Source of the DNA: a virus
DNA: 21,115 nt
Virus record (IMG/VR): IMGVR_UViG_3300027832_000129
Span: 1 to 21,115 of that record
Strand: one strand, 5' to 3'
The position numbers and the translations under genes are program-made. The notes under the pieces are model-generated. The model was not told the DNA's origin, made no database searches, and saw only the letters and a list, made by a program, of their open reading frames with translations. This document shows, piece by piece, positions 2,730 to 17,147 of the stretch. Each line of letters begins with the position of its first letter. The first letter of the stretch is position 1.

Positions 2730-3152
2730 TTACTCGCTGAAAATAATTTTAAATATTTTCGATAATTTACCTTTATTTAGATTATCTTGATTTTTAGACT
2801 CGAAAATATCTAAGATAAATCGCAATTTCTTGACCTCTATAGTAAGGTCATTCACCTTAATTGATAACTGCTTAAGCTCCAAGGTCTTATTGCGTGCATC
2901 TATAGTAATTGGACGTGTTGTTTGTTCCCTTACGGCTGTACCATAACCGAAATTCCTACCTCTATATACGATGTTATAGAATCTACCTTCTGTAACCCGC
3001 TTATGGAATGTAACCCTACCTATGCCGTACTTTTCAAGAACTGTACGTAATTGCTGACTATCAATGGATATATCACCACTTTTGCTAGTAAATTCCTTCT
3101 TGATATCTTCATAAATCGCAGTAAATGCACTATCTAATTTTGACCTGTTCAT
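2730..3152 (-). CDS. Hypothetical protein with C-terminal coiled coil
   Basis: Encodes 140 residues. Residues 1-60 are mixed polar and helical. Residues 60-85 are rich in Arg and Tyr (FYNIVYRGRNFGYGTAVREQ) and could contact nucleic acid, which is a guess. Residues 88-118 have heptad-like spacing (LELKQLSIKVNDLTIEVKKL), a likely coiled coil, followed by a basic tail. The ATG overlaps the stop of the upstream gene (ATGA, 3152-3149). It is the last gene of the proximal leftward unit. No family recognised. Confidence 0.7.
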   Translation of the reverse strand: MNRSKLDSAFTAIYEDIKKEFTSKSGDISIDSQQLRTVLEKYGIGRVTFHKRVTEGRFYNIVYRGRNFGYGTAVREQTTRPITIDARNKTLELKQLSIKVNDLTIEVKKLRFILDIFESKNQDNLNKGKLSKIFKIIFSE

Positions 3153-3542: not shown

Positions 3543-3971
3543 TTATACGTAAATACCATAACCAACTTTACACACGGATTTTACTGCTTCTTTTGTGAAC
3601 CTAACGGCGTTGTCGTTACACGTAAGTTCCCCACCTACATACTTAGGAGCATATCTCAAAGTCGTTAAATTGTTGCTATGAATCCAAAAACTCCTGCCGA
3701 TTTCTTTTGGTGCAAATTCTAATGAAGTCAATTTATTATTACAACAATCAAAACACCCAGTAACTTTTATCGGTGCATTTTTTAAAGATGTTAATTGATT
3801 ATCGTAACACCAAAAACTACCTTGCACAACTCCAAACCTAATAGGTATTTCTTTTAAATCTCTTTTGCTTAAATCTACGGTTCCTTCTACATTACATAAA
3901 CCTTCTTTGTCAATCTCATAGGTTCCATATATACCATTATCCATTTTAAATTCTTCTTCTTTCGTCATCAT
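3543..3971 (-). CDS. LRR-like repeat protein, paralog 1
   Basis: Encodes 142 residues from ATG 3971, or 141 from the adjacent ATG at 3968. After an N-terminal cap (MTKEEEFKMDNGIYGTYEID) come four repeats of about 21 residues with consensus VxGxFxCxxNxLTSLxxAPK, then a C-terminal cap (FTKEAVKSVCKVGYGIYV). These are short leucine-rich-like solenoid repeats seen in many large phage proteomes and usually of unknown role; binding of a host protein is plausible but unproven. Each repeat carries a Cys or His near the strand. The ATG overlaps the upstream stop (ATGA). Two paralogs occur at 5513-6169 and 6937-7332. Confidence 0.8.
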   Translation of the reverse strand: MMTKEEEFKMDNGIYGTYEIDKEGLCNVEGTVDLSKRDLKEIPIRFGVVQGSFWCYDNQLTSLKNAPIKVTGCFDCCNNKLTSLEFAPKEIGRSFWIHSNNLTTLRYAPKYVGGELTCNDNAVRFTKEAVKSVCKVGYGIYV

Positions 3972-4582
3972 TTTACTCCGTTAATTTCAAAAATATCATT
4001 TAAATTATTACATAAAATAAACTCGATAAAGCCGTTTAAAACCGTCCTTAAACGTGCTTCAGCATCGTTATTGTTTACGTCCACTTCAGCATAATCTGTA
4101 AGTGTATACGTGCCGTCCTTACGTTTTTTTAAACAAACTATATGGTACACTACTTGAGAGCAATCGAACAAGTAGGAGTAGCATAGACCTTGCAAGCTCT
4201 TCTGATACTTACTAACTATATCGTAATTTATGTACGAATAACGGGTCTTGACCTCATGAATCACATCGCCTGTCATTCCGTCACACATACCAGATAATAC
4301 CACCGTAAAGCCTCTTACTTCCATCGTTTTACGTACCTTCAGTTCGTGAAAAGAAAACCGTTCGCCTGTTTTTCTTGCAAGTTCGTTTGCTTCATCTGAA
4401 AAAATATCATTAGGAATACTAGTCTCAACTACTTTGTGGAATTTCGTTCCAATTTCCATATAAACCGAGGGGATAAAATCCCCCCTATATCGTTTTATAA
4501 GCTCTTCATAAGTGATTGAATCACTCATATAGTCTTGATAGTTAACTAGTTGCGTTGGACTTACCTTAAATGCTATTGCCAT
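3968..4582 (-). CDS. PD-(D/E)XK exonuclease, RecB/Cas4-like
   Basis: Encodes 204 residues. Motifs fit the PD-(D/E)XK superfamily of RecB-like exonucleases: GTKFHKVVE near residues 45-53, the metal-binding Asp in SGMCDG, the E-x-K in HEVKT about 12 residues later, and the Q/Y motif YQKSLQGLCYSYLF. It lies directly downstream of the Sak4-like ATPase and overlaps it by 10 bases, so the pair probably forms a recombination or end-processing module. It would act on DNA ends in the cytoplasm. Superfamily is fairly sure; the exact polarity or substrate is not known. Confidence 0.8.
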   Translation of the reverse strand: MAIAFKVSPTQLVNYQDYMSDSITYEELIKRYRGDFIPSVYMEIGTKFHKVVETSIPNDIFSDEANELARKTGERFSFHELKVRKTMEVRGFTVVLSGMCDGMTGDVIHEVKTRYSYINYDIVSKYQKSLQGLCYSYLFDCSQVVYHIVCLKKRKDGTYTLTDYAEVDVNNNDAEARLRTVLNGFIEFILCNNLNDIFEINGVK

Positions 4583-5490
4583 ACTTTAGTTTCCCTATTG
4601 TAGGTGCAACCAAGCACCGTGGCTACCTTACTCATTTCAACAAATAACGCTTGTTTATCTTTGTCTAGTATTTCATAATTATCGGAGCGTGCGTTAACCA
4701 GTTCGTTGATAATTTCGTTTAAGTCGTCGACACTTCTTGATGCTTTAATTTGCGTCAAAACAGAACCAATATAGTTAGATTTTTCAATATTGGCAAATCG
4801 TGTTTTTCCCAAAACCAAGAATAGTCGTTCAGCTAATTCCGTTGCGAATGTTGGTTTATCCTTGAAATCTGGAACAAAAACAATCGGTTCAATATTGCCT
4901 CTGTTTTTCAAATCGAAAGTGTTAGAATTCTGATACTCAAACATCAATTTACGTTGCTTAGACTCGGTGTAGAGCCTTGTAATGTAGTCAGCTTGAGGCT
5001 CTACAATTGCACGTGCCATCTTTCCCATCACCCTGTATGTAGTCATCTTAGCATCTGAATCGTAGTCTTCGTGTGTTATGAACAATAACTTCTTTTTGGA
5101 CTTCCTAAGCACCTCGCAAAAAGCCTTGAACTCCTTACCGATTTGACCATATAATGACATGTTTTTATTAGGGTCAGACATACTAGGGTCTAGCTTAACG
5201 ATGTACGTCTCTATCTGGCTCATCATCGTAGATAGTGCATCAACAATCACCCATTGATACTTATCAATATCCTTTAGTATAGCGTCCTTATTAGATATCC
5301 ATTCTGAATAAGTGATATCCGTTATTACATCGTTCCTATACTCCGTGCCTTTGGCTCCGTTATCGAAATCGAGTAATATACTATTATCAATCATCGATGC
5401 TAGCGATGTTTTTCCTGTTGACGGCTTACCGTACAATACCCATGTTAAGCCTTCTACAGCGATATTCTCTTCTTTTGATACTTTCTTCAT
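4573..5490 (-). CDS. RecA-fold ATPase, Sak4-like recombinase
   Basis: Encodes 305 residues. The Walker A motif is GKPSTGKTS near residues 21-29, the first strand ends in LLDFDNGAKG, and Walker B is WVIVDALST near 80-88; a later strand holds LLFITHED. This order matches the phage nucleotide-binding AAA/RecA-like family that includes Sak4 single-strand annealing/recombination proteins. The start follows a good AAGGAGA site. It is coupled to the downstream PD-(D/E)XK nuclease, as expected of a phage recombination pair. The C-terminal 80 residues look helical and regulatory. Confidence 0.8.
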   Translation of the reverse strand: MKKVSKEENIAVEGLTWVLYGKPSTGKTSLASMIDNSILLDFDNGAKGTEYRNDVITDITYSEWISNKDAILKDIDKYQWVIVDALSTMMSQIETYIVKLDPSMSDPNKNMSLYGQIGKEFKAFCEVLRKSKKKLLFITHEDYDSDAKMTTYRVMGKMARAIVEPQADYITRLYTESKQRKLMFEYQNSNTFDLKNRGNIEPIVFVPDFKDKPTFATELAERLFLVLGKTRFANIEKSNYIGSVLTQIKASRSVDDLNEIINELVNARSDNYEILDKDKQALFVEMSKVATVLGCTYNRETKVWQ

Positions 5491-5512: not shown

Positions 5513-6169
5513 TTATTCTACTTCAATATTCCCGCCGACCATACACACATCTTCTACTTCTTTTCTCGTAAAAAACGTTGGATTATAATAGCACCAAAAG
5601 TTACCTTCAACTTTCGTTGGAGAACCTTTTAAAGACGTTAAACAATTACTATCACAATCAAAATAACCACCGACGCCATTAGGTGCATACTTTAAACTCC
5701 TTAAATTATTACCATGACAGATGAAATAACCACCTACTTCCTTTGGAGCATTCTTTAACGTATTTAAGCTGTTACCAGCACAATCAAAATTACCACTTAC
5801 GTTTCCAAACGCAATAGGAATTTCTTTTAATTGCGAATAACTCAAATCTACATCACCAATTACATTACATAAACCTTTACTATCGATAGTATAAGTGCCT
5901 TTTATACCGTTTTCTTTTTTAAATTGCTCTTTTTCAATAGTACTATTTTCTTCGAGCTGTTTCAAGCAACCAATGGAGTGCATTAAGTCCCTTTTTAGTT
6001 CCACTAATTTAGTGTGTAACCGACTCAAGGGAGATAAGTAATCGTCCAATAACAGATAGTCCGTTTCTTCACTCAAGAATTTAACGGTCTTCGTTATCTC
6101 TTCTTGACACTCTTTTATGTCAATATTGTAATCGTCGATGTCTTCCAAAATCCGTTGAAATTCAGTCAT
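5513..6169 (-). CDS. LRR-like repeat protein with helical N-terminal domain, paralog 2
   Basis: Encodes 218 residues. Residues 1-80 are helical and coiled-coil-like (IDIKECQEEITKTVKFL, LHTKLVELKRDLMH). Residues 82-200 repeat the paralog layout: cap (EQFKKENGIKGTYTID), about four VxGxFxCxxNxLxSLKxAP repeats, then a C-terminal cap (FTRKEVEDVCMVGGNI). The helical part is absent from the other two paralogs and could mediate oligomerisation. It is the first gene of the leftward block, 40 bases from a consensus promoter, and follows AAATAAGGAG. It shares a 28-nt identical segment, inverted, with the third paralog. Function unknown. Confidence 0.8.
   Translation of the reverse strand: MTEFQRILEDIDDYNIDIKECQEEITKTVKFLSEETDYLLLDDYLSPLSRLHTKLVELKRDLMHSIGCLKQLEENSTIEKEQFKKENGIKGTYTIDSKGLCNVIGDVDLSYSQLKEIPIAFGNVSGNFDCAGNSLNTLKNAPKEVGGYFICHGNNLRSLKYAPNGVGGYFDCDSNCLTSLKGSPTKVEGNFWCYYNPTFFTRKEVEDVCMVGGNIEVE
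5724..5751 (-). repeat. 28-nt segment identical to 7190-7217, inverted
   Basis: Read on the minus strand, this segment of the second LRR-like gene (beginning ATGCTCCAAAGG) is identical over 28 bases to 7190-7217 on the plus strand in the third. It encodes part of the APKEVGGYF repeat. The two copies therefore form a long-range inverted repeat around the control region. Confidence 0.85.
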
Positions 6170-6208
6170 CTCGATACTCCTTATTTGTTGTTATTTAAAA
6201 TCATTAGA

Positions 6209-6240
6209 CAAATATAATACATATTTTTGACATCTCCAAA
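6209..6240 (-). promoter_or_regulatory. Bacteroidota-type promoter for the leftward block
   Basis: Minus strand: -33 TTTG (6240-6237), 20-base spacer, -7 TATATTTG (6216-6209). Start of transcription is expected near 6202, about 33 bases before the ATG at 6169. The spacer end (AAATATGTAT) matches that of the promoter at 2645-2676, so both may respond to the same factor. The four-site array begins 34 bases upstream of the -33 element. Confidence 0.8.
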
Positions 6241-6273
6241 TTTATTTACATTATTTTTAATAAAGTTTTCCAC

Positions 6274-6361
6274 CGACTTTTTGGCAGTATACTAATGACA
6301 AAGTGGCATATCGATACACATACACTAATGACAAAGTGTCAGTACGTATGACATATTGGCA
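6274..6361. repeat. Four-site inverted-repeat array (operator or iteron candidates)
   Basis: Four 13-bp sites of consensus TGACAnnnTGGCA: CGACTTTTTGGCA (6274-6286), TGACAAAGTGGCA (6296-6308), TGACAAAGTGTCA (6329-6341, a perfect dyad) and TGACATATTGGCA (6349-6361). Start-to-start spacing is 22, 33 and 20 bases, close to two, three and two helical turns. Two sites sit in a longer direct repeat, ACTAATGACAAAGTG (6291-6305 and 6324-6338). Position between divergent transcripts fits binding by a dimeric regulator or a replication initiator; which one is not decided by the sequence. Confidence 0.65.
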
Positions 6362-6679
6362 GTACAGCAAAAAAACACACTAAATAGCTGATAAGAATTG
6401 CTAAATACCTTAAATAGTTAATATATCTAATTGGTTAATTACCTGCATCAATTCTAAGGCGTCAAACAAAGCCACTACACGACGTAACAGCGTAACCCTA
6501 AAACTTATACTCATTACCCTATTACGTTGAACGTAGACACCTTAAAACGTCTTAGAAAGGCACTATACACCCAATACACCTAACAACATACCTTATTTGA
6601 GTGTTTTGGACTTAATATCCGTGTATATATTGACCGCACGCAGTCCTATCTGATTCTTTCGGAAAGAAAGACTAAGACT
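6362..6679. other. Non-coding part of the divergent control region
   Basis: No convincing gene is seen. The left part (6370-6440) is AT-rich with three TAAATA repeats (6380, 6401, 6412), a possible unwinding zone next to the site array. Further right are a perfect dyad TACGTTGAACGTA (6523-6535), scattered CGTAAC/ACGT motifs, and a small dyad TCTTTCGGAAAGA (6655-6667) just before the 6680 ORF. An origin of replication is possible but unproven. Confidence 0.4.
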
Positions 6680-6826
6680 ATGAGTAAGATTCTTGTTCCT
6701 ACTCTTAAAGATTATGTTAATAATCTCTTAGAAGATAGTGAGAAGATTAAGAAAGAAAGAAGGAATCTTAAATTGTTCCATTCTTACACGCATGCACGTG
6801 CGTACGTGTATACACAATTGTTTTGA
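6680..6826 (+). CDS. Small basic hypothetical protein (48 aa)
   Basis: A 48-codon frame starts at ATG 6680 and ends TGA 6824-6826. It begins MSKILVPTLKDYVNNLLEDS and continues with a basic helix (KIKKERRNLKLFHSY), looking like a short helical protein. A purine-rich GGAAAGAAAG lies about 10 bases before the ATG. Codons 36-46 fall in a strictly alternating pyrimidine-purine tract, so the C-terminal residues (YTHARAYVYTQ) may reflect a DNA-level constraint. It is the first rightward ORF of the control region. It could also be chance. Confidence 0.45.
   Translation: MSKILVPTLKDYVNNLLEDSEKIKKERRNLKLFHSYTHARAYVYTQLF
6785..6816. other. 32-nt perfect alternating pyrimidine-purine tract
   Basis: From T6785 to A6816 every base alternates pyrimidine and purine, with CG, CA/TG and TA steps and the palindrome GCACGTGC inside. 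Such tracts can adopt left-handed Z-DNA under negative supercoiling. It sits between divergent promoters, 50 bases before the rightward -33 box. Confidence 0.75.
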
Positions 6827-6865
6827 GTATTCCTAATTATTTATTTTGTTTATTTTTGTGTATTA

Positions 6866-6897
6866 TTTGGATATATCAAAATAAAGAACTATTTTTG
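6866..6897 (+). promoter_or_regulatory. Bacteroidota-type promoter for the rightward block
   Basis: Plus strand: -33 TTTG (6866-6869), 20-base spacer, -7 TATTTTTG (6890-6897). The spacing is identical to the two leftward promoters. Transcription would start near 6904, leaving a leader of about 33 bases before the ATG at 6937. Confidence 0.7.
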
Positions 6898-6936
6898 TTC
6901 AATGATTTCAAAACAATACGGAATATGGGGGCTTTA

Positions 6937-7470: not shown

Positions 7471-7611
7471 ATGAAAATAGTATTTGAGAATATTGGTTCA
7501 GCAATTGAAATAATTGCAAGGCTGAAGGACTACAATAGGGATAATTGGAAGGGATATAGATTAACATTTGATGTAATAAAAAGAAAGGGTATAGTATGGG
7601 TAAAGAACTGA
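7471..7611 (+). CDS. Small hypothetical protein (46 aa)
   Basis: A 46-codon frame starts at ATG 7471 after an excellent AAATAAGGAG site and ends TGA 7609-7611, overlapping the next gene by 16 bases. It begins MKIVFENIGSAIEIIARLKD and resembles the start of the 7981-8310 protein from its sixth residue (MEIVFDRTGTEIDFF). It may be a short relative of that protein. Function unknown. Confidence 0.65.
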   Translation: MKIVFENIGSAIEIIARLKDYNRDNWKGYRLTFDVIKRKGIVWVKN

Positions 7612-7991
7612 AATATACGGTTAAGGAAGCTAGCGAAATAACTGGTTACACGTTGAGCTATATCGCAATGCTCTGCAAGTTTTCGACTAAAAAAGTAGAG
7701 GCTTATAGCTCCACTGTTGAACGAAAAGACGGCACCGTAAGAGATGTTGTTATAAAGATTGAGAATCTGTTTAAGCACGGCGAATGCTGGAAGGAAGGTC
7801 ACCCTGTTGCGATTTGGTATCTTTCAAAAAAAGGACTAGATAGGTTAATAGGTAAGAAAGCGAAGAATGGGTTTACTCACTTGGAACGATTGGAAGGACG
7901 AAAAGAGACCATTAAGGGATATCTTACTACTGAAGAAATGAAGATTAAAGAACAATTATTGAATTATAATAAGCAGAAAAATGAAAAGTAA
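7596..7991 (+). CDS. Putative HTH DNA-binding protein
   Basis: Encodes 131 residues. Residues 6-28 (KYTVKEASEITGYTLSYIAMLCK) fit a winged helix-turn-helix of the MerR/excisionase type. A second segment, AIWYLSKKGLDRLIGKK near residues 72-90, also resembles a DNA-binding or wing element. The C-terminal part is basic and helical. As the only visible HTH regulator close to the control region it is a candidate to bind the nearby palindromes, which is inference. It overlaps both neighbours by 11-16 bases. Confidence 0.6.
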   Translation: MGKELKYTVKEASEITGYTLSYIAMLCKFSTKKVEAYSSTVERKDGTVRDVVIKIENLFKHGECWKEGHPVAIWYLSKKGLDRLIGKKAKNGFTHLERLEGRKETIKGYLTTEEMKIKEQLLNYNKQKNEK

Positions 7992-8668: not shown

Positions 8669-9012
8669 TTGTAAAAGCTGGCACGAAATTAATACTGTTT
8701 GAATCAGCACTAGACAGGCTTTGTTTGTCTTTAAATTTGGAATACGCAAAAGAATTGAAGTTCCATAGTTTACGTAAATTCCGTTTCGATTTTGCTATTC
8801 CAACTGCCAAATTGGCAATAGAAGTAGAAGGAGGTATATTTAAAAACGGAGGGCATACTCGAGGGCGTGGGTATATGAAGGATTTGGAAAAATATAACCT
8901 TGCAATCACTCAAGGCTGGTACGTATTAAGGTATAGTTACGAAACACTATGCCATATTGACACGATTAAGCAGATAGAAACAGTTTTAAAGAACCTAACT
9001 GGTAGATGGTGA
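8665..9012 (+). CDS. Small PD-(D/E)XK endonuclease (Vsr/DUF559-like)
   Basis: Encodes 115 residues from ATG 8665, which overlaps the upstream TGA (ATGA); an in-frame ATG at 8620 is further inside the previous gene. The motif block RFDFAIPTAKLAIEVEGG gives the Asp and E-x-E of the restriction-like fold. It is followed by HTRGRGYMKDLEKYNLA and GWYVLRYSYE, the pattern of small Vsr/DUF559-like nucleases common in phages and sometimes annotated as resolvases. A role in DNA repair, resolution or nicking during replication is plausible. It directly precedes the helicase gene. Confidence 0.75.
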   Translation: MIVKAGTKLILFESALDRLCLSLNLEYAKELKFHSLRKFRFDFAIPTAKLAIEVEGGIFKNGGHTRGRGYMKDLEKYNLAITQGWYVLRYSYETLCHIDTIKQIETVLKNLTGRW

Positions 9013-10313
9013 TGGTAATGCACAATGAAGGAGTTGAAAAGCTCGTACTATCAGCGTTATTAGCTGACTCAAAAAGCCGTGGTACTATCTTTGAGCTGAT
9101 TAAAAAGGATACTATTTACACTCCAAAGAACCAAAGTGTATTTGAATCCATATTAGAAATGTACAATAAGAGTTTGACAATTTCAGCAATAGATTTAATC
9201 GATTATATGCGAAAAATGGGGACTTTACGACACGTTGGCGAATCTTATTTATTTGAATTGAATCAAGAATCTTTAGTAGAATTTCAGCAGGTACGAAGCT
9301 ATTGTATGATTCTGAAAGAACATCAAATAAAGCGTGAATTAATGAAGTTGGTACAGAATACACAGGCACGTTTGACGAATGAAAAAGACGCTCTGGAGGT
9401 ACTCGAGTTCTTTGAAAAGGAAATGAAGAAGGTTAAAGCGATTACGAGTATACCAAAGCTATCTGCAATAATGGCAGATATTCAAGGAGCTTACGACGAA
9501 TTGCACCAAAGCAAAGTAAACCATACAATTAAAACACGATACCAGTCAATAGATGATGCCATTATTGGCTTTAATCCTACAGACTATGCCATATTAGCAG
9601 GGCGTCCATCGATGGGTAAGACTGCGTTTGCAATGAACCTAATCCGTGCATTCGAAACTCAAAATAAAAGTACATTAATGTTTTCCATTGAGATGCCTAA
9701 GGCTTTACTTTATCGTCGTTTCTTATCAATGATTGCACACGTACCAGGTTGGCGTTTGAACCGTAAATTATTCGAAACTTCAGATTATTCGTCGCTATTA
9801 GATGCAGTCAGACAAATGAAGCAATGGAGCTTAAAGATAGACGATTCAGGAACCCAAACGATACAGAGCATACGAGCAATATCGGAACGGCAAAAAGAAG
9901 AACAGGGTTTAGATGTGGTTATTATTGACCATATCGGTTTAATACGGTCTGGTAAAAGCTACTCAAAAAACGATGAATTGGGAGATATCTCACGTCAAAT
10001 TAAGCAAATGGCAAAAGAATTGAATGTAGTTGTACTGGTCTTATCGCAACTAAATAGGAGCCTCACAACACGCGTGGATAAGATGCCAATGTTAAGTGAT
10101 TTAAGGGACTCTGGGAATCTTGAGCAAGATGCTGATATGGTTATAATGCTTCATACAGATGATTATTATGATGCTGAAACTGCGAAAAACGAGGTCTGGA
10201 ACTCAAAGGTTTTCATTGCTAAAGACCGTAACAACGGTGGAACTAGAGTAGTTAACTTAGAGTTCTTGAGGAACTTTTCAAAGTTTAAAGAAAAAAACGA
10301 ATCAATTTTTTAA
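9006..10313 (+). CDS. dnaB: Replicative DNA helicase, DnaB family
   Basis: Encodes up to 435 residues; ATGs at 9006, 9012 and 9018 are all possible, and 9012 gives a TGATG overlap with the upstream stop. The N-terminal domain (1-150) matches the DnaB primase-interacting helical domain (EKLVLSALLAD). The ATPase has Walker A GRPSMGKT (199-206), Walker B DVVIIDHI (303-310), LSQLNR (346-351) and LRDSGNLEQDAD (366-377). It should unwind the phage replication fork as a hexamer. No separate primase or loader was recognised in the window, so these may come from the host or another part of the genome. Confidence 0.93.
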   Translation: MVMVMHNEGVEKLVLSALLADSKSRGTIFELIKKDTIYTPKNQSVFESILEMYNKSLTISAIDLIDYMRKMGTLRHVGESYLFELNQESLVEFQQVRSYCMILKEHQIKRELMKLVQNTQARLTNEKDALEVLEFFEKEMKKVKAITSIPKLSAIMADIQGAYDELHQSKVNHTIKTRYQSIDDAIIGFNPTDYAILAGRPSMGKTAFAMNLIRAFETQNKSTLMFSIEMPKALLYRRFLSMIAHVPGWRLNRKLFETSDYSSLLDAVRQMKQWSLKIDDSGTQTIQSIRAISERQKEEQGLDVVIIDHIGLIRSGKSYSKNDELGDISRQIKQMAKELNVVVLVLSQLNRSLTTRVDKMPMLSDLRDSGNLEQDADMVIMLHTDDYYDAETAKNEVWNSKVFIAKDRNNGGTRVVNLEFLRNFSKFKEKNESIF

Positions 10314-15148: not shown

Positions 15149-17147
15149 CTCAATAGATTATCTATTTAAGAACCCAAACGACTTTGATATAATCAGAGAC
15201 GGTTACGGTAATACGCTCGTACAAGCGTGTATAACGATGATTACGACGGTCTATTCTGAACCACGTTTCGTTGAAAAGAAAGACGGTGAACCTATAGAGA
15301 ATTCACCTATAACCTTTCTCCTTGATAAACCAAACATATACGAATCTGGAGCAAGCTTTAGAAAGAAGATAGCTGAAGATGTAGCGGTATACGGCAATGC
15401 TTACATACTAATAGAGCGTAACCGTGCAGGTAAGGCACTATCATTAAAGGTATTACCAGCGTCCATGGTTACACCATTAGAGGACGATAACGAAATAGTA
15501 ATTGGTTATCAAGTGAATTCAGTTAAGGGGATACGTAAGTACTTGAGTAACGATGTTATCCATTTAACGTGGTTCATTACAGAGCCGTTAAATAGGTTCT
15601 TAGGTTTATCGCCGATGTTTTCAGCAATGCGAGCAATTGAGACGTATAATGAGATACAACGGCACGTAGCAGGGACGATGAGTAGGGGCGGAATGTCGCC
15701 GATGTTCGCAATTACGCAGGCAGTTGGAGCCGATGGGAGTATGCAGAAGGGTACGCAAGAAGCGTACGTAAATACCTTCAGGCGTGCATGGTCAAGAATG
15801 TTTGGCAAAACTCAAAACTCAATTGTGAATACTGCTAGTGAAGCACCTATAATTATCCTTAAGGAAGGTCAAGATATTAAAGCTTTAGGTTTTGATATTA
15901 AGCAATTGGAAGCACCGATATTGCTTAAGCAGATGGAAGTACAGATATGTTCAGCATTTCGAGTGCCTCCAGAGCTTGCTATATCAAATGCAGGGATAGA
16001 GAATAGCACGTACAATAACTTACTGAATAGTTCAAGGAATTTCATTTCGATGACAATGAAACCGTTGTGGGTTCTTCATTCAGAACAAATTACAAATAAG
16101 CTTGCAGACACGAAAAACGGTTACTACATTGAAACAAACTTCAATGAGATATCAGCTACAGAGCCTTCACGTAATGAACTAATATCAATATATGATAAGG
16201 CGTATTTAAGCCGTGTGGTGACGATTGATGAGTACCGTAATGTATTAGATTTAGCACCGTTGGATAGCTCGCAATTAAGTGAATTGGTGCAAGTAGAAGC
16301 GATTAAAACCAAAGACGATACCTTCTATTCTATCCAGAATATGGACTACTACACTAAGGCATTAGATGTAATTGTTAATTTAGAAACGGCATTTGGTAAG
16401 GCACATAAGCGAGCAGGTAAGAGCTTAATCGAAGAGATTGAAGCTGAACTAGCTATACGATATCCTAATGATACTAATGTTAATCTAAGTGTTGGACTCG
16501 ATGCAGTAGGTGCCGATTTTTTTGAAAAAGAATACATAAAAGAAATTACTAATGATATCCCAAAGCTTGCTAACAGTGTAATAAGCTGGGCTGGTAATCA
16601 AGTGGATTTTACTCCTACCAAAAATGAAGTAGATGACTTGATTAGTCAATTTGATGAAGTTGTTAGAAACACTGCAAGTGATTCTGGAGCTACTTTGTTC
16701 GCACGACTTAAAGTACTATCAGCTACAGTACCTAGCGGTAATCTTTCTGAAGTAATTAAAAAACTGCGTGTAGGTGGTAACGATATAGTGGAGGGTAACG
16801 CAACGGTATCAAGTAGGACGTTAGCCACTCGTTTAACAAACGAAACATCGGTTAATGCGTGGAGCATCAAGGATAAGAAGTTAAGACGTGATGGTAAGAG
16901 GATTAAAAAAGTATGGTTTACTCAAAGAGATAAGAGAGTAAGACCAGCGCACCGATTAATGGAAGGTCAAGAAGTAGACGTAGACCAAGCATTCACATAT
17001 CAAGCGATGGGTGTAGATGCTGAAGGCAATGAATTCCCAATAGGTGAACCTAATCCCATGCAGTATCCAGTGGATATAACAGCCGAAAACGTTGGAGAGG
17101 GTGCCAATTGCAGGTGCGTAACAAGACCAATTATAGTGAGTTTATAA
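15141..17147 (+). CDS. Portal protein fused to MuF-like head morphogenesis domain
   Basis: Encodes 668 residues from ATG 15141, overlapping the TerL stop; an in-frame ATG at 15087 would extend into TerL. Residues 1-400 are HK97-type portal (NAYILIERNRAGKALSLKVL, RVPPELAISNAGIENSTYNN). The last ~90 residues hold VWFTQRDKRVRPAHRLMEGQ and end GEGANCRCVTRPI, the Mu gpF-like minor head domain. So a portal and a capsid-assembly domain are joined in one chain. The region between is helical. It forms the dodecameric DNA gate. Confidence 0.9.
   Translation: MNNSIDYLFKNPNDFDIIRDGYGNTLVQACITMITTVYSEPRFVEKKDGEPIENSPITFLLDKPNIYESGASFRKKIAEDVAVYGNAYILIERNRAGKALSLKVLPASMVTPLEDDNEIVIGYQVNSVKGIRKYLSNDVIHLTWFITEPLNRFLGLSPMFSAMRAIETYNEIQRHVAGTMSRGGMSPMFAITQAVGADGSMQKGTQEAYVNTFRRAWSRMFGKTQNSIVNTASEAPIIILKEGQDIKALGFDIKQLEAPILLKQMEVQICSAFRVPPELAISNAGIENSTYNNLLNSSRNFISMTMKPLWVLHSEQITNKLADTKNGYYIETNFNEISATEPSRNELISIYDKAYLSRVVTIDEYRNVLDLAPLDSSQLSELVQVEAIKTKDDTFYSIQNMDYYTKALDVIVNLETAFGKAHKRAGKSLIEEIEAELAIRYPNDTNVNLSVGLDAVGADFFEKEYIKEITNDIPKLANSVISWAGNQVDFTPTKNEVDDLISQFDEVVRNTASDSGATLFARLKVLSATVPSGNLSEVIKKLRVGGNDIVEGNATVSSRTLATRLTNETSVNAWSIKDKKLRRDGKRIKKVWFTQRDKRVRPAHRLMEGQEVDVDQAFTYQAMGVDAEGNEFPIGEPNPMQYPVDITAENVGEGANCRCVTRPIIVSL

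Follow-up and report, generated by a model that had tools for sequence, protein, structure and literature searches.

A phased array of four inverted-repeat sites between divergent phage operons as a candidate replication origin

The array and its surroundings

The DNA analysed here (the window) is a virus record of 21,115 bp, a fragment of an incomplete genome. To the left of about 6.2 kb its genes run leftward and encode a Sak4-like protein, a 204-aa protein and small proteins, and to the right they run rightward, encoding a DnaB-like helicase, methyltransferase, amidase, terminase, portal and capsid proteins. The two divergent operons are separated by as much as 768 bp of gene-free DNA, which contains an array of four inverted-repeat sites. 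This placement, proposed in an earlier sequence-only reading, held, with the start of the first well-supported rightward gene corrected to about 6938 and a 48-aa ORF at 6681 regarded as doubtful. The features concerned are as follows.

3968-4582, leftward: gene for the 204-aa protein, downstream of 5513-6169; weak match to a CRISPR-associated family
4573-5490, leftward: Sak4-like gene, downstream of 5513-6169
5513-6169, minus strand: first leftward gene, encoding a repeat protein
6170-6273, no strand: second AT-rich stretch (GC 0.21), containing the leftward promoter
6209-6240, minus strand: leftward Bacteroidota-type promoter TTTG-N20-TATATTTG, consensus match
6274-6286, plus strand: site 1, weak, CGACTTTTTGGCA / CGACTTTTTGGCAGTA, two mismatches to TGMCANNNTGKCA
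6296-6308, plus strand: site 2, TGACAAAGTGGCA, exact
6329-6341, plus strand: site 3, TGACAAAGTGTCA, exact and a perfect dyad
6349-6361, plus strand: site 4, TGACATATTGGCA, exact
6362-6450, no strand: AT-rich stretch with TAAATA words (GC 0.27), candidate unwinding element
6440-6690, no strand: non-coding stretch with a strong fold (z = -3.0, both strands)
6866-6897, plus strand: rightward Bacteroidota-type promoter TTTG-N20-TATTTTTG, consensus match
9006-10313, plus strand: DnaB-like replicative helicase (PHROG 19, E = 1.4e-81)

The array comprises three exact TGMCANNNTGKCA sites (starts 6296, 6329 and 6349) and one weak site (6274) within 6274-6361, with start-to-start distances of 22, 33 and 20 bp, confirming the four 13-bp near-dyads first described there. 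The clustering of these sites is far beyond chance, with a cluster score of 10 against a maximum of 5 among 200 dinucleotide shuffles, and the window as a whole has four exact sites where shuffles average 0.03. The spacing puts all four sites on one face of the helix, as had been supposed from its near whole-turn intervals (phasing resultant 0.86, with P about 0.02 when compared with random spacings). The sites are asymmetric and point the same way, and GTA stands directly behind three of the four. Site 3 is 90% identical to site 2 across 21 nt, TTGGCAGTA is common to sites 1 and 4, and a longer repeat unit, TATACTAATGACAAAGTGGCA / TACACTAATGACAAAGTGTCA, can be drawn around the sites.

Two features expected of an iteron origin are present at the locus, namely at least three tandem dyad repeats at near-helical spacing (one of the four being weak) and adjoining AT-rich, easily melted DNA. 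The neighbouring AT-rich stretch with TAAATA repeats was correctly recognised at the outset: the words lie at 6380-6423, and the best 40-bp stretch within 6362-6450 ranks in the lowest 0.03% of the window for stability. The strong fold beyond it includes a long imperfect inverted repeat (6452-6557), and might function in priming or represent an unrelated RNA; searches of the window for RNA families and tRNAs gave no matches. A 26-bp near-palindrome, TACACGCATGCACGTGCGTACGTGTA, is found at 6785-6810, upstream of the rightward promoter.

The form TTTG-N20-TAnnTTTG is the housekeeping promoter of Bacteroidota. Three perfect copies are found in the window against a shuffle mean of 0.16, each in a gap before genes, and the virus host therefore probably belongs to this phylum. 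One of the three is the leftward promoter beside the array, which by its consensus is real. The regions 6194-6241 and 6865-6912, around the leftward and rightward promoters, are 77% alike across 48 bp in inverted orientation and precede paralogous repeat-protein genes. The third promoter (2645-2676) shares ATATGTATTATATTTG with them.

A gap of 33 bp separates site 1 from the end of the -33 box of the leftward promoter, and the site centres would lie about 74, 96, 129 and 149 bp upstream of the presumed leftward transcription start. This proximity to a perfect promoter is consistent with transcription control, in which a phage or host regulator bound to the four phased sites would activate the early leftward operon or repress it by looping, a tentative reading to which we give appreciable weight. 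Phage L012, which also has Bacteroidota-type promoters, carries a similar array between divergent genes, again upstream of a leftward promoter. Against this, none of the sites overlaps any promoter recognised by the consensus scan of the window, whereas the near site reaches the -33 box in the clpB operons of phages. The arrangement also differs from a cooperative operator of the CI type, with the nearest consensus promoter 33 bp from site 1 and no match to a repressor or activator family among the window proteins searched, the genome being incomplete. The HTH protein of 7596-7991, earlier put forward as a possible binder of the array, gained no support from protein searches or structure prediction; the predicted structures of 7596-7991 and 2730-3152 had mean pLDDT values of 42 and 38 and were left unused.

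The same dyad in other genomes

Megablast against phages gave no near relatives of the virus. Scans with Sak4, with terminase and, in phages, with the capsid protein, each used singly, gave no close relatives either, and the capsid protein had one weak match among 296 Bacteroidota genomes. Distant Sak4 relatives carry parts of the same module, but such an array was absent from all 20 checked, as it was from the best 80 DnaB relatives found. In one distant relative (L126) a Lin1244_N-domain initiator gene (15345-16298) stands just upstream of DnaB and has internal 21-bp repeats (15755-15843).

The dyad itself recurs widely. Among the matches listed in viral contigs, the spacings of paired sites cluster at 21-23, 30-32 and 42-45 bp, so that phased arrays are real and widespread. 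Five classes can be distinguished. In the first, the arrays are internal to phage winged-helix initiator genes that neighbour helicase and single-strand-binding genes, at spacings of mostly 21-24 bp; this initiator family accounts for 64 of the 73 genes that enclose an array. Winged-helix initiator genes with internal TGACAnnnTGTCA iterons include L029, L035, L038, L040, L050, L060, L075, L094, L108 and L461, among others. In-gene copies ending in TGGCAGTA, as in the window, are found in L461 and G444.

In the second class, pairs of sites 30-32 or 42 bp apart precede phage clpB, hsp20 and dnaK genes; large phages with the dyad in this position include L041, L062 and L083. The third consists of bacterial genomes, mostly Bacillaceae, with arrays before TetR-family genes. 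Triple TGACACnGTGTCA-like sites, 28-40 bp apart, lie beside such regulator genes in L304-L420. In the fourth, tandem sites precede grpE-dnaJ, groES, htpG and hsp20 in Bacteroidota genomes, and the exact site is found in 6 of 29 sampled groES upstream regions compared with none for a reversed-pattern control. Genomes of this phylum with (C)TGMCANNNTGKCA(G), often in tandem, upstream of chaperone genes are L344, L421, L426, L427, L485-L491 and L700-L729. The fifth class is formed by intergenic asymmetric arrays in phages. A separate family of phage arrays, with TGCCAnnnTGGCA about 29 and 41-42 bp apart, was also encountered (L428-L434, L440, L443, L451, L453 and L478).

One 13-bp dyad is thus found to serve several apparently unrelated systems, and function must therefore be judged from context, spacing and asymmetry and not from the word alone. 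The dyad before chaperone genes is a candidate heat-shock operator. According to one report, the chaperone promoters of Porphyromonas are bound by RprY and have no CIRCE element (PMC3646045); neither a binding motif for RprY nor a regulator motif corresponding to the chaperone dyad was found in the literature searched. The use of the same tandem dyad as an operator before phage clpB, hsp20 and dnaK genes and before TetR-family genes adds to the case for transcription control of the leftward operon. The Bacteroidota sites upstream of groES, grpE-dnaJ, htpG and hsp20, with the groES counts given above, further suggest that a host regulator of chaperone genes might bind the window sites, making early phage transcription or replication answer to protein-folding stress. 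However, a chaperone gene was not found in the window, although the motif of the Bacteroidota-type chaperone operator is present, and the flanks are unlike (TGCCA is preceded by TAC in the window and by CCG or AAA in the bacterial chaperone sites). A host regulator of this kind is considered unlikely.

The form of the sites separates the classes further. Asymmetric sites pointing in the same direction make up 18 of 20 in the origin-like set and 1 of 21 among phage chaperone operators, where the sites are symmetric in 20 of 21. The commonest triplet before TGCCA in the origin-like set is TAC, that is, TGGCAGTA on the opposite strand. The window array resembles the asymmetric same-direction intergenic form TGACAnnnTGGCAG, often followed by GTA, and is unlike the chaperone operators in both site form and flanks, which also argues against transcription control. 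Since the numbers are small, this likeness to the intergenic class is a resemblance and not proof. A heat-shock operator, once entertained for the window array, was demoted after site asymmetry, flanks and skew had been compared.

Coincidence with skew minima

The window has its cumulative GC-skew minimum at 6660, at a distance of 299 bp from the array, and its AT-skew minimum (6282) falls within the array. The skew minimum is not independent evidence, because gene direction flips at the array. Other contigs were weighed in three batches. The first (four phages, picked for array likeness) and the second (18 contigs) were both chosen before skew was computed, and the third comprised contigs that a full scan for the asymmetric pattern had found. 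In the first batch the cumulative GC-skew minimum lies at the array. In the second, it does so in G445, G438, G439 and, with an in-gene array, G444, but not in G440/G441, G442 or six contigs with chaperone operators (0 of 6, the minimum being 5.6-52 kb off). In the third, one coincidence (G453) stands against 13 arrays without, of which three are inside a winged-helix gene and three near a contig end.

In G421, G422, G424, G445 and G453 an intergenic array of the asymmetric form lies 0-728 bp from the minimum, and the signal in these five records is still within the top 0.3-0.4% of positions once gene direction is corrected for. The first four form one family by common genes, and G453 is like them by its array only. 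Two further intergenic cases are G438/G439, with the array about 190 bp from the minimum, and G003, at 300 bp, and genes turn there as well; the in-gene array of G444 lies 237 bp away from its own minimum. For these contigs and the window the coincidence is weaker evidence, because gene direction turns near the array. Intergenic arrays at a GC-skew minimum are accordingly found in three unrelated phage lineages, only one of them clear of gene direction. None of the long contigs G421, G422, G424, G438, G439 and G445 yielded a winged-helix initiator when searched.

Several other intergenic asymmetric arrays (G440/G441, G456, G458, G460, G463 and G465) lie far from the skew minimum, which counts against an origin. 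The outcome is therefore mixed across the class, and the case for the window rests on its likeness to that class together with its own, confounded, skew.

A replication origin and its alternatives

The comparative evidence leans towards iterons over an operator. Of the two functions first offered for the array, iterons are favoured by the in-gene iterons and by the skew minima of the three lineages, and an operator is kept as the main rival. The best-supported reading, held with about even confidence, is that the array is the iteron cluster of a phage replication origin. An initiator dimer would bind each dyad. With all four dimers on one side of the helix, the DNA would be bent and loaded from that face and the adjoining AT-rich stretch opened, and the DnaB helicase (9006-10313) would be loaded there. 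Replication would then start at the array, with forks going left and right, co-directional with the two divergent operons. The initiator may be encoded beyond the 21-kb fragment, in which profile searches recognised no initiator gene (initiators outside known families would escape them) and a winged-helix initiator HMM gave zero matches; DnaA boxes were likewise not found in the window by strict consensus. Counted against an origin is the spacing of 22/33/20, which is less regular than that of most in-gene iterons (21-24).

Known systems offer partial parallels. Lambda and its relatives carry their iterons, four or six in number, together with an AT-rich tract inside the O gene (PMC7466680). 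The window is like ori lambda in having four short tandem inverted repeats by an AT-rich tract and in the predicted involvement of a DnaB-type helicase, but the iteron sequence is another, no O-like gene was recognised, and the array is outside any gene, with no ORF of at least 50 aa across 6274-6361 in the window ORF list. The same paper was set aside as a parallel for TGACA, which occurs there only in a primer sequence; the lambda iterons differ. The ICP1 satellite PLE carries its semi-palindromic repeats in non-coding DNA and uses an initiator of the RepA_N type, and its coverage has been plotted with GC skew (PMC7145576). Semi-palindromic direct repeats in non-coding DNA are common to PLE and the window, and the PLE initiator gene is elsewhere. 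However, no RepA_N protein was recognised in the window, and the host phylum is another. With the winged-helix (HTH_36-like) initiator genes (L029, L050, L060, L461 and others) the array shares the dyad at about two helical turns, several of them with the TGGCAGTA end, but neither their in-gene position nor their mostly symmetric form. With the tandem chaperone operators (phage clpB/hsp20/dnaK and Bacteroidota groES/grpE/htpG/hsp20) it shares the 13-bp dyad, the often whole-turn spacing and the phylum; those operators differ in lying beside chaperone genes and away from the skew minimum, with phage sites that are mostly symmetric. By analogy, the window array would work like the lambda and PLE origins while fitting neither type, because it lies outside an initiator gene and no initiator was recognised.

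The length of the gene-free region and the strong fold nearby would also suit some other role in DNA organisation (in partition, packaging or recombination) or a functionless remnant. This is slightly less likely again than a host chaperone-gene regulator: no partition or integrase gene was recognised among the window proteins searched, and the array is far beyond chance. Least probable of all is an origin or early promoter built from host chaperone-regulator sites, without a phage-coded initiator of known type; were it true, it would tie phage replication to the host protein-folding stress response. If the array is an origin, asymmetric TGACAnnnTGGCAG arrays lying next to AT-rich tracts in DNA free of genes would provide a signature for origin finding, one usable in phages without a recognisable initiator gene, and would point to a hitherto unrecognised initiator.
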